Below, one piece after another: positions 1,704-46,771 of a stretch of DNA of 52,911 nucleotides. The notes under the pieces are model-generated. The model worked only from the letters and a program-made list of their open reading frames with translations. It made no database searches and was not told the origin of the DNA. Source of the stretch: Bacillota bacterium (lineage in GTDB: Bacteria > Bacillota > Dehalobacteriia > UBA4068 > UBA4997). The stretch spans positions 1 through 52,911 of the forward strand of contig JAETTP010000013.1 in the NCBI GenBank assembly GCA_021769035.1. Direction: 5' to 3'. Position 1 is the first letter of the stretch. Each line of letters begins with the position of its first letter. Made by a program: the position numbers and the translations under genes.

Positions 1704-1724
1704 TATTGTAAAGCCTCCTCCATA

Positions 1725-3485
1725 TTACAGCGCCTCCACCGCGCCAAAACGGCAGACGGCGGCACAGTTGCCACATTTAATACATTTGGCCATATCAATT
1801 ACAAAAACTTCCCGCAGCTCGCCGCTGATGGCGCCGGCCGGGCATTTGCGCGCGCAAAGCGAACAGCCCTTGCACTTGTCCGGCTTGATGTGATATTCCA
1901 GCAGGGGCCGGCAGCTGTGGCTGGGGCATTTGTGCTCCTCAATGTGCGCCCGATATTCCTCGGCAAAGTAGCGGATAGTGCTCAGCGCCGGGTTAGGGGC
2001 CGATGCGCCCAGGCCGCAAAGGGAGCCGGCCTGAATTTGCTTGCCCAAATCCTGCAAAAGCTCCACGTCGCCGGGCTGTCCCTCGCCGCGGCAAATCCGC
2101 TCCAAAATCTCCAGCATGCGCTTAGTGCCAATCCGGCAATGCACGCATTTGCCGCAGCTTTCCTTTTGCGTAAAATCCAGGAAAAAGCGGGCCATATCCA
2201 CCATACAAGTGGCCTCGTCCATAATAATCATGCCGCCGCTGCCCATAATCGCGCCGGTTTGGCTAATGCTCTCGTAATCCACCGGCGTATCCAGCAGAGA
2301 GGCCGGAATACAACCGCCGGAGGGGCCGCCCATCTGCACGGCCTTAAACTGGCCGCCGTCCTTAATGCCGCCGCCAATGTCAAAAATAACCTCCCGCAGG
2401 GTGATGCCCATCGGCACCTCCACCAGGCCGCCGCGCTTAATTTTGCCGGCCAGGGCAAACACTTTGGTGCCCTTGCTGGTTTCCGTGCCCATTGCGGCAA
2501 AGGCCTCGCCGCCGTTGCGGATAATCCAGGCCACGTTGGCAAATGTTTCCACATTGTTAATATTGCTGGGCCGCTGCCAAAAGCCCTTTTGGGCCGGGAA
2601 AGGCGGCTTCAGCCGCGGCATGCCGCGCTCGCCCTCCAGAGAGGCCAGCAGGGCGGTTTCCTCGCCGCAAACGAACGCGCCCGCGCCGGCCTTGATATAA
2701 ATATCAAAATCCCAGCCGCTGCCGAAGATGTTTTGGCCCAAAAAACCCTTTTCCCGCGCCGCCTGCATAGCCAGCTCCAGCCGGTGAATACTCAGGGGAT
2801 ACTCCGCCCGCACGTAAATCACGCCCTGGCTGCTGCCGATGGCGCGGGCGGCGATGGCCATGCCCTCCAGCACGCTGTGCGGGTCGCTTTCCAGCACGCT
2901 GCGGTCCATAAACGCGCCGGGGTCGCCCTCGTCCGCGTTGCAAATCACATATTTCACCGCTCCCTCAGCCTTGCGGCAAGCGTCCCACTTAAACCAGGTC
3001 GGGAAGCCCGCGCCGCCGCGGCCGCGCAGGCCGGAGGTTTTCACCGTGTCGATAATGCTCTCCGGGGTCAGCTCGCAAACCGCCTGGCGCAACGCCTGAT
3101 AGCCGCCACGCTCTATGTAGTCCTCAATATTTTCCGGGTCAATCACACCGCAGTTGCGCAAGGCAATGCGGGTTTGGCTGTGCAGAAAATGCAGCTCCTC
3201 CTCGGAAAGCAGCAAATCCTCCTGCACCTGACCGCCTAGAATATGCCCCTCGGCAATCCGGGCCGCCGCCGCCGCGTCCACCCGGCCGTAAAACCAATTT
3301 TGGCCGGCCGCCTCGTCGCAAACCTCCACCAGCGGTTCTGCAAAGCACAGACCAATGCAGCCGGTGCGCTCGCTGCGGACAGCCGAACCGGCCGCGGCCA
3401 AAGCCGCGTCCAAAGCCTGCTGAGTTTGCCGGGCGCCGGCAGCCATGCCGCAGCTGCCCAGACCAATTTTCACTCTCATCGCCAT
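1725..3485 (-). CDS. NuoF/HydB-like NADH-binding flavoprotein subunit
   Basis: 586 aa. An N-terminal thioredoxin-like [2Fe-2S] region (C12, C43, C47) is followed by the NuoF core: FMN/NADH-binding GRGGAGFP at 155-162 and CNADEGDPGAFMDR at 182-195. A [4Fe-4S] site follows (C444, C447, C450, C490). The C-terminus adds a two-cluster ferredoxin domain (C538/C541/C544/C548 and C568/C571/C574/C578). The thioredoxin-like and ferredoxin extensions are typical of HydB of bifurcating hydrogenases and of StnB, not of complex I NuoF. It should oxidise or reduce NAD(H) through FMN. The start at 3485 has GGAGG 7 bases upstream and overlaps the TAA of the preceding gene by one base (TAATG), so the two are probably translationally coupled. 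An in-frame ATG two codons later is less well spaced. Confidence 0.92.
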   Translation of the reverse strand: MAMRVKIGLGSCGMAAGARQTQQALDAALAAAGSAVRSERTGCIGLCFAEPLVEVCDEAAGQNWFYGRVDAAAAARIAEGHILGGQVQEDLLLSEEELHFLHSQTRIALRNCGVIDPENIEDYIERGGYQALRQAVCELTPESIIDTVKTSGLRGRGGAGFPTWFKWDACRKAEGAVKYVICNADEGDPGAFMDRSVLESDPHSVLEGMAIAARAIGSSQGVIYVRAEYPLSIHRLELAMQAAREKGFLGQNIFGSGWDFDIYIKAGAGAFVCGEETALLASLEGERGMPRLKPPFPAQKGFWQRPSNINNVETFANVAWIIRNGGEAFAAMGTETSKGTKVFALAGKIKRGGLVEVPMGITLREVIFDIGGGIKDGGQFKAVQMGGPSGGCIPASLLDTPVDYESISQTGAIMGSGGMIIMDEATCMVDMARFFLDFTQKESCGKCVHCRIGTKRMLEILERICRGEGQPGDVELLQDLGKQIQAGSLCGLGASAPNPALSTIRYFAEEYRAHIEEHKCPSHSCRPLLEYHIKPDKCKGCSLCARKCPAGAISGELREVFVIDMAKCIKCGNCAAVCRFGAVEAL

Positions 3486-3979
3486 TATTCCGCCTCCTTT
3501 GCCCGCAAATCTTTCAGCACTGACCGCACTGAATCCGCCGTTAAGTTGCCATAAACCTCGCCGTTAATCATCATCGCCGGCGCCAAGGAGCAGCAGCCCA
3601 GGCAGGCCACATGCTTCAGCGTAAACAGGCCGTCCGCCGTGGTTTGGCCGTCGGCAATGCCCAGTTCCTCGCCGATAATGGCGGAGATACTCTCCGCCCC
3701 ATTCACGTGGCAGGCCGTGCCCTGGCACAGCATAATCAGATAACGCCCCACCGGCTGCAACCGAAACTGGGTGTAAAAGGAGGCCACCCCCAGCACCTTG
3801 GCCGGGGTCACGCCCACAGCCTCGCTGATTTTAGCCAGCGCCGGCTGGGGCAGATAACCGTAAATATCCTGTGTGTGCTGCAAAATCGTAATCAAGGAAC
3901 CCGGCTTGGCCGCATATTCCGCCAGCACCGGCTCCAAGGGCTGCAAATCAATTTCCGCTGCCTTACCCATAATATCCAT
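3485..3979 (-). CDS. NuoE/HydC-like [2Fe-2S] subunit
   Basis: 164 aa, the usual length for the NuoE family. Thioredoxin-like fold with the four conserved cluster ligands C85, C90, C126 and C130 (CQGTAC and CLGCC) and the family signature region YGYLPQPALAKISE near residue 40. It is the first gene of the three-gene electron-transfer operon and should relay electrons from the NuoF-like flavin subunit. AAGGGG lies immediately upstream of the ATG at 3979; the in-frame ATG three codons later is slightly better spaced and could be the real start. Downstream coupling with the NuoF-like gene is seen as a TAATG overlap. Confidence 0.92.
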   Translation of the reverse strand: MDIMGKAAEIDLQPLEPVLAEYAAKPGSLITILQHTQDIYGYLPQPALAKISEAVGVTPAKVLGVASFYTQFRLQPVGRYLIMLCQGTACHVNGAESISAIIGEELGIADGQTTADGLFTLKHVACLGCCSLAPAMMINGEVYGNLTADSVRSVLKDLRAKEAE

Positions 3980-4033
3980 TTCCCCTTATATAAAATTTCA
4001 CTCATTAATATTACACAGCAAACCCGTTTTTTC

Positions 4034-4052
4034 TGTTAGCATTCTGCTAACA
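4034..4052. promoter_or_regulatory. Palindrome upstream of the NADH-linked redox operon (possible operator)
   Basis: Perfect 8-base inverted repeat TGTTAGCA-ttc-TGCTAACA, 55-73 bases upstream of the NuoE/HydC-like start. Extended by one base it reads TTGTTA...TAACA on the minus strand, resembling the half-sites of the NADH-sensing repressor Rex. The spacing (9 bases between TTGTTA and TAACA) is longer than the usual 6, so the match is imperfect. It lacks the T-run expected of a terminator for the upstream carB-dapF gene. Confidence 0.4.
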
Positions 4053-4086
4053 AATTTCTGGCAAATTGCCATTTTATTTTTGTATT

Positions 4087-7000
4087 TTAAATTTCAACCA
4101 CGCCGTCAAAAAGCTTCTCCGCGCTGCCGGTCATGCGGATATTTTCACCGTCGAAGCTGATAATCAAATCGCCGCCGGGCTGCTTCACCGTGATGTCGCG
4201 GCCCTTGGCGCACAGGCCGTTCAGAACCGCCGCCACAACCGCCGCGCAGGAGCCGGTGCCGCAGGCGTTGGTGTAGCCGTTGCCGCGCTCCCAAACCTGC
4301 ATATAGAGAATGTCCTCGCTGAACACCTTCACAAACTCCACGTTCACCCGCTCCGGGAACCATTCGTGGTGCTCAAAGGCGGAACCGATTTTGTCCAGGT
4401 GCACGCCCTCCAAATCGTCGGTGAAGATAACCATATGCGGGTTGCCCACGGAAAGGCAGGTAGCGTTGTAAGTTTTGCCCAGCACCTCAATCGGCCGGTT
4501 GATGAAATCCGGCCCCTCCGCCAGCATCGGCAAAGCCGAGGGCACCAGCTGCGGCTTGCCCATCAGCACGGAAGCACCCCAAACCTTGCCGTTGCGCTTA
4601 ATCAGCTTCAGCTGCTTAATGCCGTAATCGGTTTCAATGCTCATCTCATCTTTGGCAACAATGCCGTTATCATACAGATACTTGCCCACGCAGCGGATAG
4701 CGTTGCCGCCAATGCCGCCGTTGCTGCCGTCCACATTATAAACCTTAACGTAAACGTCCGCCTTGTCGGAGGGGCAAATCATCACCACGCCGTCGCCGCC
4801 GACGCCGCGATTGCGCCGGCACAGGCGCACGGCCAGGCCGGCCGGGTTGTCCAGCTGCTGCTCCAGGCAGTTAAAGTAAATATAATCGTTGCCGCAGCTC
4901 TGCATTTTGGTGAAAGGCAAGGTTTGCAGCTGCCGCCGCAGATTGTTAATATCCACCAGCTCAATGCTCTCCTGCGTGTAGAGGCTGTGCAAGCTGTCCG
5001 CCAGCACGTTGGCGGTGTCGATTGAGGTCAGGCAGGGGATACCCCTCTCCACCGCTTTGCGCCGGGTGATTACGCTGTCCTTTTGGGGGTTGCGTCCCTT
5101 GGCGGAGGTGGAAATGACATAGTTCAGCTTGCCCTCCTCCATCAGCTTCACAGCGTTGTCGTCGCCCTCGTGGATTTTCTCCACAAAGTGCGATTCAATG
5201 CCCGCCTGCTTCAGCACCTGCCGGGTGCCGGCGGTGGCGTAAATCTCAAAGCCCATATCGGCAAATTTCTTCACCACGTGCACAATTTCCGCCTTGTCGC
5301 GGTCGTTCACGGTCACAAACAGGCCGCCCTTTTGGTTCAGGTTGTAGCCGGCCGCCACCAAGCCCTTGTAAATAGCCTCCTCAAAGTTGGAGCCAAGGCC
5401 CAAAACCTCGCCGGTGCTCTTCATCTCCGGCCCCAGCTGGTTGTCCACGTTCAGCAGCTTCTCAAAGGAGAAAATCGGCACTTTGACCGCGCAGTAAACC
5501 GGCGTGGGATAAAGCCCCGTGCCGTAGCCCATATCGGCCAGCTTTTCGCCCAGCAGGGCCCGCGTCGCCAAATCAACCATCGGCACGCCCGTCACCTTGC
5601 TCAAATACGGAATGGTGCGGGAGGAGCGCGGGTTCACCTCAATCACATACAGCTGGTCGTCCTTAATCAGGTACTGGATATTCACCAGGCCGTGAGTTTC
5701 CAGCTCCACCGCCAGCTTGCGGGTGGTTTCAATAATCACATCCACCATATCGTCGTTGATATTAAAGGAGGGATAAACGGCAATCGAGTCGCCGGAGTGC
5801 ACGCCGGTGCGCTCCACATGCTCCATAATGCCGGGTATCAAAATATCCTCGCCGTCGCAGATAGCATCAATCTCCAGCTCCACGCCCTGCAAATATTTGT
5901 CGATAAGCACCAGATTATCCACGTTCTGCTCCAGGATAATCGCCATATATTCCTTAATATCCGCCTCATTAAAGGCGATAATCATATTCTGGCCGCCCAA
6001 AACGTAGGAGGGACGCATCAAAACCGGGTAGCCGATATGCTCGGCCGCCGCCAGGGCCTCCTCGGTAGTTTTCACCGTTTCCCCCTGCGGCCGCAAAATA
6101 TTCAGCTTGGTCAACAGCTCGTCAAAGCGGCCGCGATCCTCCGCCCGGTCAATGCTGTCGGCGGAGGTGCCCAAAATGCGCACGCCCTGCTTATCCAAAA
6201 AGTTGGTTAGCTTAATAGCCGTCTGGCCGCCAAAGGCCACCACCACGCCGTAAGGCTTTTCAGTGGCGATGATGTTGCCCACGTCTTCCTCGGTCAGCGG
6301 TTCAAAATACAAGCGATCAGCCGTGTCGAAGTCGGTGGAAACCGTTTCCGGGTTGTTGTTGACGATAGCCACCTCAAATCCTTTTTGCTGCAAGGCCCAC
6401 ACGCAATGCACGGAAGCATAGTCAAACTCAATGCCTTGGCCAATCCGAATTGGGCCGGAGCCCAAAACCAACACCGTCGGCTTGGGGTTGGCGCGCTCCG
6501 CCAAAAATTCGGCCGCCTCGTTCTCCTCATCGTAGGTGGAGTAGAAATAAGGCGTTTCCGCCGCAAACTCCGCCGCGCAGGTGTCCACCATCTTGTAGAC
6601 GGCCCGCGCCGGCTCGGCCACCGGCTGGCCGGAAAGCTGGGCAATCACCTTGTCAGGAAAGCCCATCCGCTTGGCCGCCAGGTATTTCTCCCGGTCATAG
6701 CCGCCACGCAAGCTGGCCTCCATAGCGGCAATGTTAGCCAGCTTATGCAAAAACCACATGTCGATTTTGGTAATATCATATATTTCTTGCAGGTCCACAC
6801 CCTGCTTAATCGCCTGATAGATGACGAAAAGCCGCTCGTCGGTGCATTGGTGCAGTGCCTGGCGGATTTCCGCCGGGCTCATCTCCAGCTGCCGGTGGGC
6901 GTTCAAATCACTCAGGCCAATTTCCGCCCCGCGCACCGCCTTCATCAAGGCCTGCTCAAAGCTCAGGCCAATCGCCATCACCTCGCCGGTGGCTTTCATC

Positions 7001-8124
7001 TGGGTGCCCAAATCACGCTTGGCGTAAACAAACTTGTCAAACGGCCACTTGGGGAACTTCACCACAACATAATCCAGGGTTGGCTCAAAGGCGGCGGCCG
7101 TTTTGCCGGTCACCGCGTTCTTAATCTCGTCCAGGGTGTAGCCAATGGCAATCTTGGAGGCCACCTTGGCAATCGGGTAGCCCGTGGCCTTGGAGGCCAA
7201 AGCCGAGGAGCGAGAAACGCGCGGATTAACCTCAATCACGGCGTATTCAAAACTGTTAGGGTTTAAGGCAAACTGGCAGTTGCAGCCGCCCTCCACCTGT
7301 AGCTCGTTGATAATATCCAGCGCGGCGGTGCGCAGCATTTGGTATTCCTTGTCGGACAAGGTGACAGCCGGGGCAATCACAATGCTGTCTCCGGTGTGCA
7401 CGCCCACCGGGTCAAAATTCTCCATTGAGCAAATGGTGATATTGTTGCCCTTGCTGTCGCGCATAACCTCAAATTCGATTTCTTTCCAGCCGGCCACCGA
7501 TTTCTCCAGCAAAATCTGGTTGATAGGCGAAAGGCGCAGGCCGTTGTCGGCAATCTCGCGCAGCTCCGCCTCGTTGTTGACAATGCCGCCGCCGCTGCCG
7601 CCCAGTGTAAAGGCCGGCCGCACAATGACGGGATATTGCAGACGCTCCGCCAACACCACTGCGTCCTCCACCGTGGTAACAATATCCGAGGGTATGCAGG
7701 GCTGGCCGATTTTCAACATCGTTTCCTTAAAAAGCTGGCGGTCCTCCGCCCGCTCGATAGTTTCCGGCCGCGCGCCCAACAGGCGCACATTGTTGGCCGC
7801 CAAAAAGCCCTCCTTAGCCAGCTGCATCGAAAGGGTGAGGCCGGTCTGCCCGCCCAGGGTGGAAAGAATACTGTCCGGCTTTTCCTTTTTAATAATCCGC
7901 TTCAGCACCGGCAAAGTCAGCGGCTCGATATAAATTTTGTCCGCCATGGCGCTGTCCGTCATAATCGTGGCCGGGTTGGAGTTCACCAGCACCACCTCCA
8001 GGCCGTCCTCTTTGAGCGCCCGGCAGGCCTGCGTGCCGGCGTAGTCAAATTCTGCCGCCTGCCCAATCACAATCGGGCCGGAGCCAATCACCAAAACCTT
8101 TTTTATTCCCGGATTTAATGGCAT
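4087..8124 (-). CDS. carB: Carbamoyl-phosphate synthase large chain fused to a diaminopimelate epimerase-like domain
   Basis: 1345 aa in one uninterrupted frame. Residues 1 to about 1065 are a complete CarB: two ATP-grasp/synthase halves (GSGPIVIGQAAEFDY near the N-terminus; a second GSGPIRIGQGIEFDY near 560) and the MGS-like allosteric domain (about 940-1065). Residues 1069-1345 (bases 4087-4920) are a full-length DapF-like domain: KMQSCGNDYIYF, RGVGGDG, the second catalytic cysteine in TNACGTGSC (C1288), and HMVIF/VNVEFV motifs. The first catalytic cysteine position (C in the family motif CGNGxRC) is glycine 1139 here (GGNAIRC; codon GGC at 4708-4710). CarB makes carbamoyl phosphate for pyrimidine and arginine synthesis with CarA; DapF normally makes meso-diaminopimelate for lysine and peptidoglycan. 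The ATG at 8124 has GGGGAGG upstream and lies 14 bases after carA. A fusion of these two enzymes is unusual to me. Confidence 0.93.
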   Translation of the reverse strand: MPLNPGIKKVLVIGSGPIVIGQAAEFDYAGTQACRALKEDGLEVVLVNSNPATIMTDSAMADKIYIEPLTLPVLKRIIKKEKPDSILSTLGGQTGLTLSMQLAKEGFLAANNVRLLGARPETIERAEDRQLFKETMLKIGQPCIPSDIVTTVEDAVVLAERLQYPVIVRPAFTLGGSGGGIVNNEAELREIADNGLRLSPINQILLEKSVAGWKEIEFEVMRDSKGNNITICSMENFDPVGVHTGDSIVIAPAVTLSDKEYQMLRTAALDIINELQVEGGCNCQFALNPNSFEYAVIEVNPRVSRSSALASKATGYPIAKVASKIAIGYTLDEIKNAVTGKTAAAFEPTLDYVVVKFPKWPFDKFVYAKRDLGTQMKATGEVMAIGLSFEQALMKAVRGAEIGLSDLNAHRQLEMSPAEIRQALHQCTDERLFVIYQAIKQGVDLQEIYDITKIDMWFLHKLANIAAMEASLRGGYDREKYLAAKRMGFPDKVIAQLSGQPVAEPARAVYKMVDTCAAEFAAETPYFYSTYDEENEAAEFLAERANPKPTVLVLGSGPIRIGQGIEFDYASVHCVWALQQKGFEVAIVNNNPETVSTDFDTADRLYFEPLTEEDVGNIIATEKPYGVVVAFGGQTAIKLTNFLDKQGVRILGTSADSIDRAEDRGRFDELLTKLNILRPQGETVKTTEEALAAAEHIGYPVLMRPSYVLGGQNMIIAFNEADIKEYMAIILEQNVDNLVLIDKYLQGVELEIDAICDGEDILIPGIMEHVERTGVHSGDSIAVYPSFNINDDMVDVIIETTRKLAVELETHGLVNIQYLIKDDQLYVIEVNPRSSRTIPYLSKVTGVPMVDLATRALLGEKLADMGYGTGLYPTPVYCAVKVPIFSFEKLLNVDNQLGPEMKSTGEVLGLGSNFEEAIYKGLVAAGYNLNQKGGLFVTVNDRDKAEIVHVVKKFADMGFEIYATAGTRQVLKQAGIESHFVEKIHEGDDNAVKLMEEGKLNYVISTSAKGRNPQKDSVITRRKAVERGIPCLTSIDTANVLADSLHSLYTQESIELVDINNLRRQLQTLPFTKMQSCGNDYIYFNCLEQQLDNPAGLAVRLCRRNRGVGGDGVVMICPSDKADVYVKVYNVDGSNGGIGGNAIRCVGKYLYDNGIVAKDEMSIETDYGIKQLKLIKRNGKVWGASVLMGKPQLVPSALPMLAEGPDFINRPIEVLGKTYNATCLSVGNPHMVIFTDDLEGVHLDKIGSAFEHHEWFPERVNVEFVKVFSEDILYMQVWERGNGYTNACGTGSCAAVVAAVLNGLCAKGRDITVKQPGGDLIISFDGENIRMTGSAEKLFDGVVEI

Positions 8125-36789: not shown

Positions 36790-39135
36790 TTAGTGCTCTT
36801 TCCATTCTTTTTCCGGCAAAGCCACCAACAGCACCGGCGAATCCGAGCCGTCCGGGGTGATATAGGTGACTGTGGCGGTTTGGCCGGCCTCAATAACGCC
36901 GATAATCACGCCCTCATGATTGGTCTGGATTTGGTCGGTGGCGCTGAGCAGGCAAAGCTGGCCGTTGAAAAGCAGCGCGCCGCGATAGATGGAGCCGCGC
37001 GGGTTTATCAGCAGGCCGGTGCGCTCAGTAGCCGTTAAATGCAGCGTCTGCACCATGCCATAGTTGCCCTTGTTCTCGGTGGTGCCGCCGGTCATCGCGT
37101 CCACGCCTTTCAGCAGATAGCTAGAAATCCAGCCGCCGAAAGAATCGGGATAGCCCAGCATAATCTTCTGGCCCTCCGCGCCCAGGGTAATATTGATGTC
37201 ATAGGCCGCCTTTTGGTAGCTACCGCGGGTTTGCGGGCCCACCGAGTTTGTCGGCTGCAAGTAGGTGTAATTGCGGAAGTCGCTGTCCGGATACATCGCC
37301 GCCACGGCCAGGGTCAGCTGACCTTCCGTGTAAATATCCACCAGACCGGATTGCAGATAAGCCGGCTTAACCGCCGTTTTCTGGTCGGCATTCAGCAGAT
37401 ATTTTTCGCCGGGCTGCAAGGTAACCGTGCGGTTCAAAGCCTGCGCGCCCAAATAACTTTGGTTCTCAATATAGCCCACCTGCATAGGATCCTGCGAGGG
37501 GCCGGCGAAGCCCATTTTACCAATCGTAAAGGTAATTGGCGCTTCTGTTTCATTGTGGGCGATCATATAAAATTTCAGCTCGCCGGCCGTGTTGTTCAAG
37601 TGATGATAATGCACGGCAATGTTGCCGGTGGCGGTGTCCTTGTAGAGCAGGCCGGGGCCGGCAACCTTTTCCGGGCTGTTGCTGTCCAGCAGGTTCACGT
37701 CCAGCTGGCGCAGACCGGTGGTTTGGGCCGGCGCCAAATTGTTGAAATTATATTTGGCCAGATTCAGGAAAATTTCGCCGGGGTTCAGGTTCTGGAAGCG
37801 AAACTCCGCCTCCGTAGCCATCACCTTGTCCTTAACCTCAAAGGTCAGCTCCGCCGTTTCGCTCCACTGGCCAAAAGCGTCCTGCAAGCGCAGGCTCACC
37901 GTATGCTCGCCCGGCCGGAAAAAGGCCGCCGGCTTGCCCAGCTTGGTAATTTTCTTGCCCTGGTCGTCCTCCCAGGAATAGGTGAAGTAAACCGAGGAAA
38001 GTTCCTCCCACTCTTCATTGTCGTAAAGATAGGAAATATCCAGCCTTTGGCCAATCGCCACGTCCATATTCAGAGCGGCAAGCTTGGTCACCTCCGGCGG
38101 GCGGTTCACCTCCAAATAGTAATCAATAATCACCGGTTCGCTCCACAGGCCTAGGGAGTTTTTCACCTTGTAGCTGATAGTGTAATCGCCGCCCTGCTTT
38201 TGATAGAACAGCCAATAGAGGCTCTCGCCGCTTTTGGTCTGGCCGGTGGCAACGTCCGTCACCTCCCACAGGCGTTCCACAATCGGCAGATTTTGCGGAT
38301 CAAAGCTGGAATCCACATATTGAACGGTTTGGCCGGCAGTGGCCGGCTGATAAGTAATATCCGCCACCGGCGGCAGCGGCTCCAACTCAACCGGCAAAGT
38401 AATCAAAATACTATGCTCCTCCGGAATATACTGCACCTGGCAATCCATCAGTTCCGTAATCAGACGCAACGGAACATAGGTGCGGCCCTCCACCACCGTG
38501 GGCGGCTGCGCCATCGTGTAAGGCTGTTCCCCGGCCTGCACCGTGCCGGCGGCCAAATCAACCAGCAAGCTCAGCTGGCCGCGCTCCACCCGCACCAAAT
38601 TAGTTTCCGCATCCCAAACCACCTGCGCATCCAGAATATCCTGGGCGATAAAGCGCAACGGCAACATCGTGGTGCCGTCCAGACTAAACGGGGCCGCTTC
38701 AATCTGCTGGCTTTGGCCCCGCACCAGAGCCCACTTGCTGTCAAGCGTCAGTTTAACCTGATTCAGCGCCGGGTCAATGCCGCTGCCGGCCGGCTGCTGC
38801 TCGCCGGGCTCCATCGGGTGAGTTGTTTCGGTCGGGTCGGTCGCTTCAGTTGGGTCGGTTGGTTCAGTTGCCTCGGTTGGTTCGGTTGGTTCGGTCGCTT
38901 CAGTTGGCTCAGTCGGGTCTGTTTGCGCCGGCGTTTCCGTTGCCGCCGCCGTGTCTTTCAGCTGGCCCGGATTGTCGGAATCATCATCGGGCTGCGGCTG
39001 CGCGGTGGTCTGCACCGGCTGGCCGGCCTCCGCCTGGGTTGCCTCGTCCGCCCAGGCCGCGCCCGGCAGCAAACACCAGGCCAGAACCAGGCAAAGCAAA
39101 AGTATCTTCTTCAAAAGCTTCTTAAAACTCTCCAT
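36790..39135 (-). CDS. Large secreted protein with copper amine oxidase-like N-terminal (stalk) domain
   Basis: 781 aa. Signal peptide 1-29 (KKLLKKILLLCLVLAWCLLP, cleavage after AWA). Residues about 68-108 are a Thr-Glu-Pro/Asp-Pro-Thr low-complexity linker. A stalk domain (about 126-246) has the paired MLPLRFIAQDI and YVPLRLITELM motifs typical of clostridial surface proteins. Two Ig/PKD-like segments follow (about 255-345, 350-440), then a C-terminal beta-rich domain of about 330 residues that I do not recognise. It is probably anchored at or released from the cell surface. AGGAG precedes the ATG. Substrate or partner unknown. Confidence 0.85.
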   Translation of the reverse strand: MESFKKLLKKILLLCLVLAWCLLPGAAWADEATQAEAGQPVQTTAQPQPDDDSDNPGQLKDTAAATETPAQTDPTEPTEATEPTEPTEATEPTDPTEATDPTETTHPMEPGEQQPAGSGIDPALNQVKLTLDSKWALVRGQSQQIEAAPFSLDGTTMLPLRFIAQDILDAQVVWDAETNLVRVERGQLSLLVDLAAGTVQAGEQPYTMAQPPTVVEGRTYVPLRLITELMDCQVQYIPEEHSILITLPVELEPLPPVADITYQPATAGQTVQYVDSSFDPQNLPIVERLWEVTDVATGQTKSGESLYWLFYQKQGGDYTISYKVKNSLGLWSEPVIIDYYLEVNRPPEVTKLAALNMDVAIGQRLDISYLYDNEEWEELSSVYFTYSWEDDQGKKITKLGKPAAFFRPGEHTVSLRLQDAFGQWSETAELTFEVKDKVMATEAEFRFQNLNPGEIFLNLAKYNFNNLAPAQTTGLRQLDVNLLDSNSPEKVAGPGLLYKDTATGNIAVHYHHLNNTAGELKFYMIAHNETEAPITFTIGKMGFAGPSQDPMQVGYIENQSYLGAQALNRTVTLQPGEKYLLNADQKTAVKPAYLQSGLVDIYTEGQLTLAVAAMYPDSDFRNYTYLQPTNSVGPQTRGSYQKAAYDINITLGAEGQKIMLGYPDSFGGWISSYLLKGVDAMTGGTTENKGNYGMVQTLHLTATERTGLLINPRGSIYRGALLFNGQLCLLSATDQIQTNHEGVIIGVIEAGQTATVTYITPDGSDSPVLLVALPEKEWKEH
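38821..38919 (-). repeat. Coding tandem repeat for Thr-Glu-Pro/Ala units
   Basis: Degenerate 9-base and 27-base periodic repeat coding for (D/E)PT and EAT units (residues 73-105 of the secreted stalk-domain protein). Such arrays vary in copy number by slippage. Confidence 0.8.
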
Positions 39136-39190
39136 TTTAATCTTTTCTCCTTTGACTTTAACACTATCTTATATAATTATCTGACCTTAA

Positions 39191-40531
39191 TCACAGCTTT
39201 TTAAGAAAACCGCGTATTTTGGCCAGGTTTCTGTTAAGAATCAGTTGCATTTTGGCATTTTTACCAAATCGCTGCGGGCTTTGAGCCCGTTTTACATAAG
39301 TGAGGAAGTTGCCCGGCTTATTATCCGCGCCCCGCACCGAATAAATGTTGTATAAGTTTTTTTTGCTGATGCGCCGGCCAAATCTGGTATAACCGTTGCT
39401 TTGAGCAATGGTTTTGGCCTTGCGGCGCATTCTCTGATAATACTTGGAAATGGTTTTGTCCCGTATGCTTACGTTTGCGCCGTCAAAGGTGAAGCCCAAA
39501 AAGTTCAAATAACGGTTAGAGCAATCAGCCTGCCGGTGCATAACCAGACCGCAGTTTTCTATCTTATTATCACAAAAATGGTAATATTGAGTTTTGTTTG
39601 GCTGCAATTCCAGGCCTGGGCTTTCCGGGCTGTTAAACAAAGCGCTGATTTCGCTCAAAATTTGCACGGCCGCTGCCTCTGCCACCTTTGGCAAGATAAC
39701 AATAAAATCATCGCTATACCGCATATACATACCTTTATAAGCGGCAACCAAATCCAAAATTTTTCTATCTTTTTCCAGCATATAGATATTAGCCAGAACA
39801 CCGCTCATCGGCGAGCCCTGCGGAATCCCACAGTTTTGGTTTTTATAAATACGAAAAGCGTTTTGCTTTAATTGCAGCGGGGTTAAAACCCGCTCCTTTT
39901 TATTTAATGCCCGCCGGCCTTTAAGGTTATTCTCCAAACCATTAATTGCCAGCAAATCAGTTAATTCAAAATAAGAAAATTTGGTGATATTTTTGAACAC
40001 CGCATAATGCTCCGGCGGGAGTTTATCTGCGTTTAACAAAGCGCACCATTGCTTTTTCAGATATTGGTGGTCCAGATTGTCAAAAAACTTGGTAAAATCC
40101 CCAATCATAACATAGCAATCCTGGCTGCCGCGAATAAACTGAATGGCCCGGTGCGCAAAATCAATATTGTTCTGCTTGTTTAAATTGGTGCGATAAGCAA
40201 CGGCGGCCCCTCCAATGCCCAACCGGGCACATTCAGCATTGTAATGCTCATTGAGGATAAAATTATAAAGCTGAAAAATGCAGCGGTCAATATGCGCGGC
40301 ATAGCAAATATCCCGCTGCTTGGGCTTTATAGCCTGCAGCTTGGCGGAATATTTGCTCATATCCATAACATAATGAATAAAAGGATAAAAACCATGCCGG
40401 CAGATATTTTGCGGATTGGAAATATAGCTCCAACATTTGGCAATATCTGTGCGATAATCAAAATGAGCGTAACAGCGCTTACTCTTTTCAATGGTTTTAG
40501 GGTTGGTTCTCCAGGCTTCAACGTCCAGAAT
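39191..40531 (-). CDS. Lone reverse transcriptase of the UG/DRT type (possibly DRT2)
   Basis: 446 aa if initiated at 40531. RT motifs in order: MIGDFTKFFDNLDH (motif A, first catalytic Asp), CGIPQGSPMSGVLANIYM (motif B), MRYSDDF (motif C, bases 39707-39718), NFLGFTFDG (motif E region). The N-terminal GFYPFIHY and KQRDICYAAHIDRCIFQLYN precede the fingers. There is no maturase X domain, HNH nuclease, or DGR-type motif, so it is not a group II intron or DGR; it is larger than typical retron RTs. Only noncanonical starts fit: GGAGG at 40538-40542 lies 6 and 9 bases before ATT (40531) and CTG (40528). The maximal frame begins at TTG 40597 without a ribosome site; the first ATG is about 55 codons further in. 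Codon use is AT-richer than neighbours. Upstream is a structured leader with a perfect promoter. Confidence 0.88.
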   Translation of the reverse strand: MLDVEAWRTNPKTIEKSKRCYAHFDYRTDIAKCWSYISNPQNICRHGFYPFIHYVMDMSKYSAKLQAIKPKQRDICYAAHIDRCIFQLYNFILNEHYNAECARLGIGGAAVAYRTNLNKQNNIDFAHRAIQFIRGSQDCYVMIGDFTKFFDNLDHQYLKKQWCALLNADKLPPEHYAVFKNITKFSYFELTDLLAINGLENNLKGRRALNKKERVLTPLQLKQNAFRIYKNQNCGIPQGSPMSGVLANIYMLEKDRKILDLVAAYKGMYMRYSDDFIVILPKVAEAAAVQILSEISALFNSPESPGLELQPNKTQYYHFCDNKIENCGLVMHRQADCSNRYLNFLGFTFDGANVSIRDKTISKYYQRMRRKAKTIAQSNGYTRFGRRISKKNLYNIYSVRGADNKPGNFLTYVKRAQSPQRFGKNAKMQLILNRNLAKIRGFLKKL

Positions 40532-40552
40532 TTTCCACCTCCAACATGCCGA

Positions 40553-40855
40553 TACCCGTTGACACGGAGGATAGCATTCCTTAGCCAACGGGTACAAATT
40601 AAACGTGGTATTTAAATTTCATTACGGATTTAGATTACCAGCTATCCTAAATTCAATAAGATAATTGTTTAACAATGAAGCAAACAATTATGCTAGGCAA
40701 AGCATGTCAACAAATTGAACAAGATAAACAATGCAAATTAATTGAGCCAGATAAGCAAAGCAAAGTTTTGTTCTGTTCAACTGAAGCGACCGGATAATCC
40801 GACCAACCAGGGTTGACAGCAATAAGCTTCCCTTATATCAATTATATAAGGTATC
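40553..40855 (-). ncRNA. Structured non-coding leader of the reverse transcriptase (candidate template RNA)
   Basis: About 300 bases from the predicted start (about 40852-40855) to the RT ribosome site. Stems seen on the transcript: 40844-40851/40831-40838 (CCTTATAT/ATATAAGG), 40774-40780/40715-40721 (TTGAACA/TGTTCAA), 40682-40691/40661-40670 (perfect 10 bases, ATAATTGTTT/AAACAATTAT) and 40586-40594/40553-40561 (TACCCGTTG/CAACGGGTA). No conventional gene fits here. Associated ncRNAs upstream of the RT are known for DRT2 and DRT9 defence systems. Confidence 0.6.
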
Positions 40856-40858
40856 TTT

Positions 40859-40887
40859 ATTATAGCACAAACACAGGAGCATGTCAA
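40859..40887 (-). promoter_or_regulatory. Perfect consensus promoter of the RT/ncRNA unit
   Basis: TTGACA (40882-40887), 17-base spacer, TATAAT (40859-40864) with an extended -10 (TG one base upstream) on the minus strand. Expected to be strong and constitutive. Confidence 0.9.
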
Positions 40888-40917
40888 CCCATAGGCCATA
40901 AAAAAGCCCTTAGTAAA

Positions 40918-40947
40918 GGTATATTCTGGACTGGCAATCATATACAT
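40918..40947 (+). promoter_or_regulatory. Sigma-E-like promoter of spoIID
   Basis: GGTATATT (40918-40925), 13-base spacer, CATATACAT (40939-40947). This resembles the mother-cell sigma-E consensus (ATATT near -35, CATA at -10). spoIID is a sigma-E gene in Bacillus. The same architecture precedes bofA at 47916-47943. Confidence 0.6.
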
Positions 40948-40980
40948 TTAAGGAATTTTTTTTGCAGGGAGGTTTGGTCT

Positions 40981-41991
40981 ATGAGGGAAAAAGTGGGCTG
41001 GCTGCGGCCGCTGCTAGGCCTGCTAGCGGCGGCGTTGCTGCTAGCGCTTATTTTCGGCAGGCCGCAAATTTGGCAATATCTGGAAAATTGGCTGGGCCAA
41101 GGAGAGCCCTCGGAGGAGCCGGACGCACCCCGCTATTATCTGACATTGCAGCACGTTGCCAAAAGCGAAGAGCAAGCAAACGAAACCAACCTGACAAGCG
41201 AGCCCGGCCAGCCAAACGAGCCGGACGGGCAAATTGAGCTGGAGGAGGCCGTGGTGGGTTTTGTGGCGGCGGAAATGCCGGCCGGCTACGCCGAGGAGGC
41301 CCTGGCAGCGCAGGCCGTGGCCGCCCGCAGCTACGCCTGGCACAAACAGCTGACGGAGGGCCAGGTTTGCGATAACAGCGCCCATTGCCTGGCCTATCTG
41401 GACGAGGCCGGTCGCCGGGAACGCTGGGGCAAGCATTTTGCGGAATATGAGGCTAAAATCCGCCAAGCCGTCAGCCAAACCGCCGGTTTGGTGCTAACGA
41501 AAGACGGCGAGGTACTGCCGGCCTACTTTCACGCGGCCTGCGGCGGCATGACGGAAAGTCCGGCCAACGGCTTTGGCGGCGCCAACCTGTGGCCGGCCGC
41601 CGCCTGCTATTGGGAAGCCGACAGCAGCCCAAGCAGCTGCTTTTGGCCCAAAGCGGAGCTGGCCGAGCGTTTGCAGCTGAGCCAAACGGAGCTGCCGCTG
41701 CTCTACATTTCCGCCAGCACGCCCAGCGGTCGGGTTAAGGAGCTACGCTGCGGCACCAACCGCTGGAGCGGCGCGGAGTTCCGCCAGCTGTTGGGCCTGC
41801 CCTCCAGCCGTTTCAGCTGGCTGGCTGGACAGGAGGGCTTTTGGTTCACCTGCCAGGGCTTCGGCCACGGCGTTGGTCTCTGCCAGCAGGGCTGCGGCGG
41901 CCTGGCCGCCCAGGGCGCGGATTGGCGGCAAATCCTCAGCGTCTATTATCCTGGCTGCCAGATCGAAAATTTAGCTGAAGTCAACAATTAA
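40981..41991 (+). CDS. spoIID: Stage II sporulation protein D (lytic transglycosylase)
   Basis: 336 aa from the ATG at 40981 (GGGAGG 8 bases upstream); the longer frame from 40813 covers the promoter and is rejected. One N-terminal membrane anchor (about 9-28), a Pro/Glu linker, then the SpoIID/LytB domain: VVGFVAAEMPAGYAEEALAAQAVAARSYAW with the catalytic Glu in AAEMP (spread over about 90-120), AYFHAACGGMTE, and GFGHGVGLCQQG near the end. It trims peptidoglycan during engulfment with SpoIIP/SpoIIM. The next gene encodes its usual neighbour, a SpoIIQ-like protein. Confidence 0.93.
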   Translation: MREKVGWLRPLLGLLAAALLLALIFGRPQIWQYLENWLGQGEPSEEPDAPRYYLTLQHVAKSEEQANETNLTSEPGQPNEPDGQIELEEAVVGFVAAEMPAGYAEEALAAQAVAARSYAWHKQLTEGQVCDNSAHCLAYLDEAGRRERWGKHFAEYEAKIRQAVSQTAGLVLTKDGEVLPAYFHAACGGMTESPANGFGGANLWPAAACYWEADSSPSSCFWPKAELAERLQLSQTELPLLYISASTPSGRVKELRCGTNRWSGAEFRQLLGLPSSRFSWLAGQEGFWFTCQGFGHGVGLCQQGCGGLAAQGADWRQILSVYYPGCQIENLAEVNN

Positions 41992-42014
41992 AGACCCGTT
42001 AAACAGGTATAAAA

Positions 42015-42071
42015 AACCACTCCGCCGGCCAAAATCAATTTAACGAAACAATTTTGGCTAAAGGAGTGGTT
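42015..42071 (+). other. Hairpin that sequesters the ribosome-binding site of the SpoIIQ-like gene
   Basis: Outer stem AACCACTCC (42015-42023) pairs perfectly with GGAGTGGTT (42063-42071); inner stem GCCAAAAT (42028-42035) pairs with ATTTTGGC (42051-42058). The right outer arm contains most of the Shine-Dalgarno AAGGAG (42061-42066) of the gene starting at 42074. There is no T-tract, so it does not look like a terminator. Confidence 0.75.
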
Positions 42072-42073
42072 AA

Positions 42074-42982
42074 ATGCTAAATTTTAAACCGGACAAGCTG
42101 GGAACCCGCCTGCTAATGCTGCGCTGGGCCGTGCTGGGCGCGCTGGTGCTGGCCGTGGGCGCGGTGGCCGTTTGGGGAAACGCCCGGCCGCAAATGGAAG
42201 CCAGGCAGGCCTCCGGCAATTTATCAAACCAGCTACAGGCGCACATAGGAGCCGACGCCCAGCCGCAGCTGGTGATTGCGGACAACAATCTTGAGGATAT
42301 ACCGGCAAATATTGCGCAAAATACGCCGTTGCCGGCGGCAAACAACACCGACCAGCCGGTGGCAAAAGAACCGCCGGAAACAGCCGAGCCGGAAATGCAG
42401 GCGGTGAGCGGCGGCAGCATAAGCAACGCGGCCCTGCTTGAGCCGAAAGCGGAGCCCAATGAGGACGACGACACCACCGCCAACGCCAATATCGACGCGG
42501 AGCCGATTGACGAGGTGGTGGATTTGGCGCCGGAGCCCTGGGTCGGCGATGCGTCACTGGCTGCGGAGGCCAGCCTGCAACAGCTGCAAGCGCCGCTGAG
42601 CGGCAGCAGCGGAATCAGCCGCAACTTCGGCTACGGCTACGACGCTGCCTTTGACGATTGGCGCTTCCACAGCGGCGTGGATTTGGCCGGCAGCCTGGGC
42701 GCAGCCGTTTTGGCCCCTCTGCCAGGGGAAATTAAGGAAATCCGTCAGGATAGCTTCACCGGCAGCAGCCTGGTTTTGCAGCACGAGGGCGGCCTGCTCA
42801 GCGCCTACTACGGCTTGCAGCTGCAACCGGGCCTCAGCCAAGGCCAGCAGATTATCGCCGGAGAAAAGCTGGGCGAGCTTTGCGCGCCGCCGCCCTTTGA
42901 GGAGGCCGCCGGCCCCCACCTTCATTGGGAGCTTTCCCTGGGCGACGAGCATATTGACCCGACCGCCTATCTTAAAAATTAG
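42074..42982 (+). CDS. SpoIIQ-like membrane-anchored M23 peptidase
   Basis: 302 aa. One membrane anchor (about 16-35), an acidic Ala/Pro-rich linker (about 40-175) and a C-terminal M23/LytM domain. Zinc ligands are complete: FHSGVDL (HxxxD) and GPHLHWEL (HxH). SpoIIQ of Bacillus lost the catalytic histidine, whereas clostridial versions keep it, as here. Together with SpoIIIAH it forms the forespore-mother cell channel. Its place directly after spoIID supports this role over a vegetative endopeptidase. The ribosome site is inside a hairpin. Confidence 0.85.
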   Translation: MLNFKPDKLGTRLLMLRWAVLGALVLAVGAVAVWGNARPQMEARQASGNLSNQLQAHIGADAQPQLVIADNNLEDIPANIAQNTPLPAANNTDQPVAKEPPETAEPEMQAVSGGSISNAALLEPKAEPNEDDDTTANANIDAEPIDEVVDLAPEPWVGDASLAAEASLQQLQAPLSGSSGISRNFGYGYDAAFDDWRFHSGVDLAGSLGAAVLAPLPGEIKEIRQDSFTGSSLVLQHEGGLLSAYYGLQLQPGLSQGQQIIAGEKLGELCAPPPFEEAAGPHLHWELSLGDEHIDPTAYLKN

Positions 42983-43000
42983 TCGGCTTAATTAACTATT

Positions 43001-43048
43001 GCTTAAACAGGCAAGCCGTCGATTTATCGACGGCTTGCCTGTTTAAGC
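43001..43048. repeat. 22-base perfect inverted repeat at a convergent gene junction
   Basis: Left arm 43001-43022 and right arm 43027-43048 are perfectly complementary with a four-base loop. The stop codon of the minus-strand FAD enzyme (43024-43026) is in the loop and its last seven codons form one arm. No T-tract follows on either strand. It probably acts as a bidirectional terminator or 3'-end protector for the SpoIIQ-like and FAD-enzyme transcripts. Confidence 0.9.
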
Positions 43049-44676
43049 ACATTTTCCGCTTGACGTATACCGTCAACCGCAGCTGATACAATACCGCCCG
43101 CATACCCCGCCCCCTCGCCGCAGGGATATAACCCCGGCAGATTAAGGCTCTGGCCGTCCTCCGGGTTGCGCAGCAAGCGCACCGGCGAGGACGAGCGAGT
43201 TTCCGGCGCGGTCAGCAGGCCGTCCGGCTCCGCCAGCAGCGGCAAACGGGCCGCCAGCAAGGGCAAGCCCTGGCGCAATGCCTCCGCCACAAAGGGCGGC
43301 AGGCAACCGGCCAAATCCGCCGGCCGCACACCCGGCAAATAGCTGGGCTGCACCCGGCCAAAGACGCGGCTGGCCCGCCCGGCCAGAAAATCGGCCACCG
43401 TTTGGCAGGGGGCCTGATAGGCCGCCCCGGCCAGCTGAAAGGCCGCCTGCTCAATCTGCCGCTGAAACTCCACCCCGGCCAGCGGCGCGGCCTCGCAACC
43501 GCCAAAATCGGCCGGCCCCACGTTCACCAGCAGGGCGGCGTTGCAATTTTGGCCCGCCCGCGCGTGCAGGCTCATTCCGTTGGTGACAACGCCACCCGCC
43601 TCCGAGGCCGCAGACACCACCTGCCCGCCCGGACACATACAAAAGCTGTAAACCGTGCGGCCGCCGGACAAATGCACCGCCAGCTTGTAATCCGCCGGCG
43701 GCAGGGCCGGTTGGCCGAACTCGTCCAGCACCGCCGCAAAATCACCGTACTGCACCCGGTTCAAATCCGCCTGCCGGTGCTCCGCCCGCACGCCCACCGC
43801 AAAAGGCTTGGCCTGCATCGCCAGCTTTTCCGCCGCCAGCCAAGCAAAGGTGTCGCGGGCGCTGTGGCCGACCGCCAATATCACATTTTCCGTGGGGACA
43901 AGCTGATTGGGGCCCTCGCCCGCAGCCGCCGCCAGCTCCACTGCCTTAATCCGGCCGCTTTCCCGGCGCAGACCCACCAGCTGACAACCAAAGCGCACCT
44001 GACCGCCCAGAGCAATAATCTCCCGGCGGATATTAGCCACCACCTGCCGCAGAATATCCGTCCCGATATGCGGCTTGGCCAGATAAAGGATTTCCGGCGG
44101 AGCCCCGGCCGCCGCCAACACCTGCAAAACCAGCCGATTGCGCCGGTCCTTGGTGTTGGTAGTTAGCTTGCCGTCGGAAAAGGCCCCGGCGCCGCCCTCG
44201 CCAAACTGCACATTGCTGTGCGGCAAAAGCGGCCCGCCCTGCCAAAAGGCCTGCACCTGAGCAACCCGCTGCTCCACCGGCGCGCCGCGCTCCACCAGCA
44301 GCGGGCAGGCCCCGGCCCGCGCCAGCCACAGTGCCGCAAAAAGCCCGGCCGGCCCAGCTCCCACCACCACCGGCGGGTTGGCAAAGCAAGCCTGCCCCGG
44401 CTCCGGCCATTCCGCCTCGGCGGCCGGCGGCAACGGCTGCACCAGATTGCGCCGCCGCGGATTAGTCAACAAGCTGCGCTCCAGCTTGGGCGGCAGCTGC
44501 AAGGCCAGTGCATAAACAAAATGCACGTCGGTTTTTTGGCGCGCGTCCACGCTTTTATGCACAATCTGCCATTTCAGCAGCTGCTCCGGCTTGATATGCA
44601 GCTTTTGAGCAACCAGCTCCGGCAGCAGGCTTTCTGGCTGCCCCACCGCCAAACGTAGCTGAGCGATTTTCAACAT
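43024..44676 (-). CDS. FAD-dependent dehydrogenase (COG2509 type)
   Basis: 550 aa. An N-terminal region of about 95 residues (KLHIKPEQLLKWQIVHKSVDAR) typical of this family precedes the FAD site VVVGAGPAGLFAALWLARAG. NVQFGEGGAGAFSDGKLTT, VILAVGHSARDTF, FCMCPGGQVV and the C-terminal GLYPCGEGAGYAGGIVSAAVDGI are family signatures. Widespread in Firmicutes; substrate not established. It ends the thiD-HI0933-COG2509 operon, 14 bases after the previous gene. Confidence 0.9.
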   Translation of the reverse strand: MLKIAQLRLAVGQPESLLPELVAQKLHIKPEQLLKWQIVHKSVDARQKTDVHFVYALALQLPPKLERSLLTNPRRRNLVQPLPPAAEAEWPEPGQACFANPPVVVGAGPAGLFAALWLARAGACPLLVERGAPVEQRVAQVQAFWQGGPLLPHSNVQFGEGGAGAFSDGKLTTNTKDRRNRLVLQVLAAAGAPPEILYLAKPHIGTDILRQVVANIRREIIALGGQVRFGCQLVGLRRESGRIKAVELAAAAGEGPNQLVPTENVILAVGHSARDTFAWLAAEKLAMQAKPFAVGVRAEHRQADLNRVQYGDFAAVLDEFGQPALPPADYKLAVHLSGGRTVYSFCMCPGGQVVSAASEAGGVVTNGMSLHARAGQNCNAALLVNVGPADFGGCEAAPLAGVEFQRQIEQAAFQLAGAAYQAPCQTVADFLAGRASRVFGRVQPSYLPGVRPADLAGCLPPFVAEALRQGLPLLAARLPLLAEPDGLLTAPETRSSSPVRLLRNPEDGQSLNLPGLYPCGEGAGYAGGIVSAAVDGIRQAENVLKQASRR

Positions 44677-44690
44677 ATTATAATAACTCC

Positions 44691-45971
44691 TTAATTAGAC
44701 AAAAGATACTGCACGGCGGAATGGGCCGCCAGGCGGCCGCTGCTCCAGGCCCAGCTGAGGTTGTAGCCGCCGCAGTCGCCGCAAACGTCCAGCAGTTCGC
44801 CGGCCGCAAACAGGCCGGGCAGCCGCCGGGCCGCCAAGGTTTGGCTGTCAAAGCCTTTCAGCTCCAGGCCGCCGGCCATCACCTGGGCCCGCTCCCAGCC
44901 CGTCACACCGCAAACGGCCAGCGGCAGGGCTTTAATCAACCCAGCCAGCCGGGCCATATCCGCCTCCGTCAGGCTCCTTGCCGGGGCGGAGAGCTTTCGC
45001 TCCCCCGGCAGCAGCTTCAAAAGCTGCTGGCCCAGACGTTTGTTCAACAGGCCGGTCAAAAAATCCTCCAGCAGCAAGGGCAGACTGCGACGGGCCAAAA
45101 GCTCCGCCAACAGCTCCGCCCGCGGCATTTGCGGTAGCAAATTCAGGCGGATTTCCTGAGCCGCCGGCTGCGGATTGGTGTAAAAATTGCGCGCCACCCA
45201 GCGGGAAAGCTGCAAAATCGGCGGGCCGGAAAGGCCGTAAGCCGCAAAGAGGATTTCCCCCTCCGCCTCGGCCAACAGCTCCTCCACCTGCCACAAAGCG
45301 GCCCGCCCATTGAATTTTATCCCTTGCAGGGAATTAGGCAGCGGGCCGCTGCATTTCAACTGGGTTAAGGCCGGATAAAGACGGGTGACTTTTAAGCCCA
45401 GCGGGGCCAGCAACTCGGTAAAGCCCTGGGCATGGCTTAACTGCGGCGAGGCCAAACCGCCCATCGCCAGCAGCAAAGCGCGGCAATGCAGCAGCCGGCC
45501 ATCGCTCAGGCGCAAGCGCCAACCGGCCGCCTGCCCCTCATTTTGCCGCTCAATCCCGCACACCTCCGCCTCGCACAGCAATTCCAACCGGCGGGCCGCC
45601 AGCTGCAACCGCAGGGTGTCCAGCACCGCCACCGCTTGGTCGCCCAGCGGATACATTTTGCCCTCCGCTTCCTGTTTAGTCAGCAGGCCCATGCTTCGGA
45701 AGAAAGCCAAATTATCCTGTTGCGTATATTTTTGCAGGGCCGGCTGCACAAAGGCGGGGTTCTGCCCGGCAGCGTTGTAGTAATGTCCGCGGTCGGCGGC
45801 GGCGTTGGCGATATTGCAACGGCCGTTGCCGGTGGCCAGCAGTTTTTTGCCTGGGCGCGGCAGACGCTCCAGCAGGGCGACGCGCAGCTTGGGCGCTTCG
45901 CAGTTAGCCTGAATGGCCGCCAGCATACCGGCCGCGCCTGCGCCCACGATGATTAAATCATATTTTTGCAT
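44691..45971 (-). CDS. HI0933/YhiN-family FAD-dependent oxidoreductase
   Basis: 426 aa. DLIIVGAGAAGMLAAIQA (FAD), RPGKKLLATGNGRCNIAN, LLLAMGGLASPQ, VCGVTGWERAQVMAGG and LFAAGELLDVCGDCGGYNLSWAWSSGRLA (split over the C-terminus) are diagnostic of the BaiN/HI0933 family. Flavoprotein of uncertain physiological substrate; some relatives act on bile acids, but that is not implied here. It lies 17 bases after thiD. Confidence 0.92.
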   Translation of the reverse strand: MQKYDLIIVGAGAAGMLAAIQANCEAPKLRVALLERLPRPGKKLLATGNGRCNIANAAADRGHYYNAAGQNPAFVQPALQKYTQQDNLAFFRSMGLLTKQEAEGKMYPLGDQAVAVLDTLRLQLAARRLELLCEAEVCGIERQNEGQAAGWRLRLSDGRLLHCRALLLAMGGLASPQLSHAQGFTELLAPLGLKVTRLYPALTQLKCSGPLPNSLQGIKFNGRAALWQVEELLAEAEGEILFAAYGLSGPPILQLSRWVARNFYTNPQPAAQEIRLNLLPQMPRAELLAELLARRSLPLLLEDFLTGLLNKRLGQQLLKLLPGERKLSAPARSLTEADMARLAGLIKALPLAVCGVTGWERAQVMAGGLELKGFDSQTLAARRLPGLFAAGELLDVCGDCGGYNLSWAWSSGRLAAHSAVQYLLSN

Positions 45972-45988
45972 AAATTATCCTATTTAAA

Positions 45989-46771
45989 TTATAAATCGCA
46001 GCAATGGTTAAGCGGCCCTTTGCCGCGGCCCAAATTAAGCTGGGCCTTTAGGGCCCGCAGCAAAAACTGCTTGGCCTTGTAAACCGCCTTGGCCGGCGGG
46101 CAGCCGGCCGCCAGCTGGCAGGCAATGGCGGAGGACAGGGTGCAGCCGGTGCCGTGGCTGTTGGGGTTGTCTACCCGCGGGCTCTTAAACCAGATAACCT
46201 GGTCCTGGATATAGAGCAAGTCGCTGGCTTCGTCGCCCGGCAAATGCCCGCCCTTAATCAGAATAGCCGCCGGGGTTTGTTGGCTGATTATTTGGGCCGC
46301 CCGCACCATATCCGCCTCGTCGTTGATTGTCAGGCCGCTCAAAATGCCTGCCTCATGCAGGTTGGGCGTAATCATATCCGCCACCGGCAGCAGATAACGC
46401 TGCAAGGCGGCCACGGCCTCCTCCTGCAACAGGCGGCCGCCGCTTTCGGCCACCATAACCGGGTCTAGCACCACGTTGCGCGCCTGATAGCGGCGTAAAT
46501 TCAGGGCGATAGTCATAATAATCTCACTGTTAAAGGTCATGCCAATCTTCACGGCGTCCGGCGGAATATCCTCAAACACGGCTTGCAGCTGGCTGGCCAC
46601 AAACTGAGGCGTGGCCTGCTGAATAGCGCTGACCCCCAAGGTGTTTTGCGCCGTGAGGGCGGTTATCACGCTCATCGCGTAGGCTTTGTGCACGGTAATA
46701 GTTTTAATATCGGCCTGGATTCCCGCGCCGCCGGAGCAATCGGAACCGGCAATCGTCAAAATTTTGTTCAT
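45989..46771 (-). CDS. thiD: Hydroxymethylpyrimidine/phosphomethylpyrimidine kinase
   Basis: 260 aa. Ribokinase-like fold with IAGSDCSGGAGIQADIKTI, ALTAQNTLGV, KIGMTF, DPVMVAESG, LLIKGGHLPG-type region and the anion hole GTGCTLSSAIACQLA. It phosphorylates HMP twice in thiamine synthesis, or pyridoxal in related enzymes. No TPP riboswitch is seen upstream, only a promoter and GGGGAGG. It leads a three-gene operon with two FAD enzymes. Confidence 0.93.
   Translation of the reverse strand: MNKILTIAGSDCSGGAGIQADIKTITVHKAYAMSVITALTAQNTLGVSAIQQATPQFVASQLQAVFEDIPPDAVKIGMTFNSEIIMTIALNLRRYQARNVVLDPVMVAESGGRLLQEEAVAALQRYLLPVADMITPNLHEAGILSGLTINDEADMVRAAQIISQQTPAAILIKGGHLPGDEASDLLYIQDQVIWFKSPRVDNPNSHGTGCTLSSAIACQLAAGCPPAKAVYKAKQFLLRALKAQLNLGRGKGPLNHCCDL

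Follow-up and report, generated by a model that had tools for sequence, protein, structure and literature searches.

Among the described systems the closest is the anti-phage system DRT2 (UG2) of Klebsiella pneumoniae (KpnDRT2; PDB 9c0i), in which a reverse transcriptase (RT) copies the template of its upstream ncRNA from one ACA motif to another, returns by a jump and produces concatemers, of which the antisense strand contains a junction promoter and an endless open reading frame (PMC12039810, PMC11100668). Disruption of any scaffold feature of this ncRNA including the buttress, with the exception of the tower length, abolished cDNA production (PMC12039810). In divergent DRT2 clades, Neo was reported to be hard to annotate by Tang et al., who suggested alternative mechanisms (PMC11100668). 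The layout of an RT with an upstream ncRNA is also known from DRT9 (UG28).

The DNA analyzed here, called the window, is a stretch of 52,911 nucleotides from the genome of a Bacillota bacterium. One of its loci (Table 1) resembles KpnDRT2 in having a single-domain RT of the same fold and an upstream ncRNA of about 280–305 nt, with the promoter upstream of the ncRNA and with a 5′ handle hairpin, a template region, a pseudoknot and a tower hairpin. In contrast, the two RTs are only about 30% identical, the window locus has ATTG as its predicted jump motif where KpnDRT2 has ACA, its neo unit is not open and comprises 166 nt instead of 120 nt, and both the buttress hairpin and the ATG start codon are missing. 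Judged from its sequence, the locus is by descent a DRT2 locus, while as a working system it fails in two defining features tested, neo and the buttress. What the window carries here is thus less a novel type of system than, in all probability, a relative of DRT2 that is inactive or in decay.

Table 1. Features of the DRT2 locus in the window (positions of the whole stretch).
Feature	Position	Strand	Basis
Inserted cassette: promoter, ncRNA and RT	39173..40912	-	blastn collinearity; boundaries read by eye
ncRNA-RT promoter TTGACA-N17-TATAAT, extended -10	40859..40887	-	12/12 consensus; same position in close relatives
DRT2-type ncRNA, about 305 nt, ends approximate	40548..40853	-	alignment with relatives, folding
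RT-6 RNA (RF03027): 5′ handle, ATTG-1, complement of neo -35	40803..40853	-	Rfam 37.4 bits, E 1.1e-5
5′ handle hairpin CCTTATAT-aattg-ATATAAGG	40831..40851	-	folding, comparison with relatives
4-nt element within the RT-6 match	40820..40823	-	kept in relatives
Complement of neo -35 (TGTCAA)	40813..40818	-	with 40812 can pair GTTGACA at 40705-40711
Template unit between ATTG-1 and ATTG-2, 166 nt	40658..40823	-	length not divisible by 3; every concatemer frame has stops
Longest remaining neo-strand frame, 40 hydrophilic codons, then TAA	40675..40797	+	frame search
Template hairpin, 10-bp stem, 11-nt loop with extra ATTG	40661..40691	-	stem read from sequence, fold
Jump motif ATTG-2	40654..40657	-	6 nt before pseudoknot arm, as in L004-L006
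Pseudoknot arm GGATAGC; partner GCTATCC at 40569-40575	40641..40647	-	all eight sequences can form 7 bp
Linker at buttress position, no hairpin	40611..40640	-	comparison with relatives
Tower hairpin, 11-bp stem; pseudoknot partner in loop	40553..40594	-	covariation
Shine-Dalgarno GGAGG of RT	40538..40542	-	read directly
Drt2 reverse transcriptase, about 445 aa	39191..40531	-	PADLOC, Foldseek, alignment

The RT is a Drt2/UG2 enzyme by profile, sequence, fold and phylogenetic tree. PADLOC assigned it to Drt2 with 465 bits (E 6.5e-140), far above every other family. The Drt2 equivalog of NCBIfam was the best match with 359 bits, under the curated cut-off of 390; since five of six relatives, including ones with a predicted neo, also fall under this value (347–414 bits in the six), it is a strict one for these clades. 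Among PDB entries, those closest in sequence are structures of DRT2, and a Foldseek search with the fold predicted by AlphaFold2 (pLDDT 80, pTM 0.79) found 9c0i as best match (E 1.9e-30, TM 0.74/0.77), followed by DRT9 (E 9.4e-13). In the tree, the RT falls into a starred clade together with DRT2s of Oscillospiraceae and Lachnospiraceae. Placement in DRT9 was rejected on the much weaker profile score (65 vs 465 bits) and fold match (E 9e-13 vs 2e-30), as were a group II intron RT (73 bits vs a cut-off of 300; no maturase domain) and a retron RT (St85, 43 bits vs a cut-off of 235). RVT_1 of Pfam is the only domain of the protein, and the YSDD active site (about 39707-39718) is intact, with D274 and D275 invariant in the alignment. 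The original prediction of a lone UG2/DRT2-type RT with intact catalytic motifs and devoid of group II maturase modules is borne out by these data, and the alternative it had named, an RT from among those of group II introns or retrons, does not hold by the profile scores. The RT frame reported by the ORF finder (39191-40597, minus strand) is likewise present, but not with its start: the TTG at 40597 falls inside the ncRNA at the edge of the tower hairpin, and the alignment with ten relatives lets the protein start at about 40528-40531, about 70 bp downstream. All ten relatives have an ATG there, whereas the window offers CTG (40526-40528) or ATT (40529-40531). Low-level translation initiation is possible at both of these codons. 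In comparison with the related loci L004–L006, synonymous sites are saturated (pS 0.74–0.76) and non-synonymous divergence is low (pN 0.17–0.19; dN about 0.2), which argues that the RT was constrained for most of its history. A loss of function, if real, would therefore be recent, or another role keeps the RT.

The leader was compared with Bacillota DRT2 relatives from Oscillospiraceae/Lachnospiraceae (L004, L005, L006), with L007 and L008 and with a faecal phage scaffold (L012), of which the RTs are 72% (L004, L005), 71% (L006), 53% (L007), 50% (L008) and 41% (L012) identical to that of the window. In handle, ATTG motifs, pseudoknot and tower, these relatives are of the same kind as the window locus. 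They differ from it in that their predicted neo (141–165 nt, with TTGACA-N17 as promoter at the junction) is open and hydrophobic, that a hairpin occupies the buttress position and that the RT starts with ATG. The promoter of the window locus is the best site in the region and a perfect sigma-70 match, and the leader folds better than 100 of 100 shuffled sequences (z = −3.2). Among the eight sequences, 5 of the 11 tower pairs show changes of both partners while pairing stays at 100%, and in L012 the pseudoknot is formed by GGGTGAT/ATCACCC in place of GGATAGC/GCTATCC. From their position and form, pseudoknot and tower would correspond to the scaffold of Klebsiella DRT2 (PMC12039810). Compared to its nearest relatives, the window locus has a linker shorter by 9 nt at the buttress position, and no hairpin was found there, while all seven relatives compared have one. 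Both the textbook promoter and the structured RNA on the same strand had been predicted and are confirmed; the leader, moreover, is conserved among homologues, so the second refuting condition that had been named, a leader structure not conserved in close RT homologues, does not hold either. In L012 (MT839204), a group II intron RNA is located upstream of the DRT2 locus on the opposite strand (1460-1772).

The whole 75-position model of RT-6 from Rfam aligns to the 5′-most 51 nt of the leader RNA, with a score below the gathering score of 46.7 bits. At the same place RT-6 matches with 52–74 bits in L004 (2748-2821), L005 (2759-2834), L007 (2710-2783) and L008 (2693-2765), and with 38 bits in L012. 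In the four loci above the gathering score, the RT-6 match falls on the 5′ handle, the jump motif and the -35 complement. Given these scores in relatives, RT-6 is the 5′ end of the DRT2 ncRNA of this clade; the model comprises the 5′ part only, while the scaffold lies outside. A literature search for papers naming RT-6 found nothing.

The template is flanked by ATTG/ATTG in this Bacillota clade, compared to ACA/ACA in Klebsiella DRT2. For a neo test, the template was concatenated from ATTG-1 to ATTG-2 and checked for an open frame and a junction promoter. This predicts repeats of 153 nt (L004, L006, L009), 141 nt (L005), 144 nt (L007, L008) and 165 nt (L012), each with one frame open across the junctions and with TTGACA-N17 followed by a -10 element matching in at least five of six positions, whereas at most 0.5% of shuffled leaders gave this result. 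With hydropathy values of +0.5 to +1.1, the Neo repeats predicted for the clade are hydrophobic. The distant loci L013, L014, L023 and L025 show the same neo pattern with other jump motifs. In leaders of a sister DRT2 clade (L010, L013, L014, L023), the predicted neo units have jump motifs of the GTAT, TTTGTA or AGTATTA type, and the jump motif thus appears to vary by clade. In the DRT2 of Lachnospiraceae B63 (L009, 3069-4420), the predicted neo is intact and the RT is split by a frameshift, so decay of single DRT2 parts occurs elsewhere.

Applied to the window, the test finds jump motifs that match over 7 nt, since ATTG lies within CTTATTG at both template ends, and a template unit without an open frame: each of the three neo-strand frames contains stops, and the 166-nt unit stays closed after any one substitution, insertion or deletion. 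The junction would read TTGACA-N18-AACAAT, a 10/12 match of non-optimal spacing, and the longest remaining frame has a mean hydropathy of −0.53, in contrast to the hydrophobic Neo repeats of the clade. If the RT jumped instead to the ATTG within the loop of the template hairpin, the unit would measure 147 nt and be in register, but every frame of it has a stop, the best one a single TAA in each repeat, and its -10 element is poor. For neo on the ncRNA-sense strand, open units occur only with poor junction promoters or at the wrong place. An exhaustive search of both strands yielded no credible candidate for an alternative neo.

The cassette of 1.74 kb has a GC content of 41%, while its flanks have 58–62%. 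By blastn, the window at 36794-39171 and 40914-46000 is collinear with 626-3011 and 3095-8121 of a contig from a congener, with matching flanking genes at about 84–85% nucleotide identity. In the congener the cassette is absent, and window 39173-40912 corresponds there to an unrelated intergenic sequence of about 84 bp. The insertion site lies between spoIID and the gene of a surface protein with a Cu_amine_oxidN domain, and no mobility gene was seen inside the insertion, which contains the promoter, the ncRNA and the RT only. In relatives of the genus, order and class (43 class members and 61 relatives), no DRT2 was found besides that of the window's own genome, and a phylum sample of 399 genomes contained three distant DRT2s in addition to it. 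Viral contigs held no close relative by protein search or by ncRNA pattern; by alignment, six distant relatives were found. These comparisons support horizontal acquisition of the DRT2 (UG2) locus, in agreement with the predicted acquisition of AT-richer DNA into a sporulation and surface-protein neighborhood. The Cu_amine_oxidN protein gene (36790-39135, minus strand) includes a TEPTEPTE-type repetitive stretch (window 38820-38960), which the congener has in a differing form. The genome encodes two further, mutually similar RTs on other contigs (1285-2460 of L001 on C59 and 485-2088 of L003 on C30), for which PADLOC returned generic 'RT' matches. The one on C30 is preceded by an ORF of 163 aa that looks Avd-like, and our impression is that both may be RTs of diversity-generating retroelements.

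By analogy with the published Klebsiella system, the RT of intact relatives would bind the upstream pseudoknotted ncRNA and copy the template between the two ATTG motifs with an end-to-start jump. The junctions of the resulting tandem-repeat cDNA would create a sigma-70 promoter and the stop-free gene neo, the product of which would arrest the phage-infected cell. The window copy retains its RT and the larger part of the RNA scaffold. Its template, in contrast, no longer gives rise to an endless ORF or to a good promoter at the junction, its RT has a weak start codon and its buttress hairpin is lost; the locus would most likely lack the neo response and be decaying with its RT not yet lost. 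We thus consider it likely that a horizontally acquired DRT2 locus, its RT long under purifying selection, has recently lost its neo effector, and we favor such recent decay over a neo-independent variant, an assembly or sequencing error and an invertible template. Neo, the buttress hairpin and the ATG of the RT are all missing, which amounts to three separate lesions. Against decay speak the full-length RT frame with intact catalytic residues under strong purifying selection and an ncRNA that still has its promoter, handle, tower, pseudoknot and both ATTG motifs. Of the original prediction of a defence system composed of an RT and an ncRNA, the DRT2 family and the layout hold, while the idea of a working copy is not supported, given the missing neo, buttress and ATG. 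The window copy is presumably inactive, and a working canonical DRT2 defence at this locus is doubtful from its sequence.

The constraint on the RT could also be explained by a working DRT2 variant without an endless ORF, in which the effector would be the 166-nt repeat cDNA or a short peptide of 40 codons, or of 35 from the next ATG, similar to the cDNA-based DRT9 and DRT10. The 7-nt jump match, the correct placement of ATTG-2 relative to the pseudoknot, the perfect -35 element of neo, the strong template hairpin and the alternatives suggested for divergent clades in which Neo is hard to annotate (Tang et al., PMC11100668) are consistent with it. However, all close relatives in the clade have a canonical neo, the 40-codon frame is hydrophilic in contrast to their Neo repeats, and the missing buttress belongs to the scaffold features needed for cDNA production in Klebsiella (PMC12039810), and we judge such a variant unlikely. 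That a DRT2 RNP without an endless-ORF effector makes non-coding or short-peptide-coding tandem-repeat cDNA from the buttress-less ncRNA, in defence or in another role, seems to us rather improbable.

Since the locus is known from a single draft genome of 117 contigs, and since neither the 43 class members nor the 61 relatives include a strain-level replicate, an intact DRT2 might be hidden by an error in sequencing or assembly. This is very unlikely, as more than one substitution, insertion or deletion would be needed to open the 166-nt unit and as neither the deletion of the buttress nor the altered start codon is part of the template fault. Even less credible, and in our view extremely improbable, is a working DRT2 in which the 100-bp template core between the inverted repeat TGTCAAC/GTTGACA stands in an OFF orientation. 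With the core inverted and a jump to the hairpin-loop ATTG, the unit would be open, measure 147 nt and contain an ATG behind AGG and one fully open, moderately hydrophobic frame of 49 codons; 30% of shuffled cores are equally open, so this frame is no evidence. Furthermore, neither a recombinase nor a second orientation was seen, and the jump site needed differs from the one placed by the scaffold.

The locus is a modest find in itself, because DRT2 and the de novo gene neo are already described. The predicted ATTG jump motif of the clade lets neo be predicted in Bacillota DRT2s, where published annotation of divergent clades was reported to be difficult. The RT-6 RNA of Rfam is the 5′ part of the DRT2 ncRNA of this clade. 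The window copy would illustrate how DRT2 looks with the neo effector gone and the RT persisting, and it may serve as a natural test of whether the pair of RT and ncRNA keeps any role without Neo.
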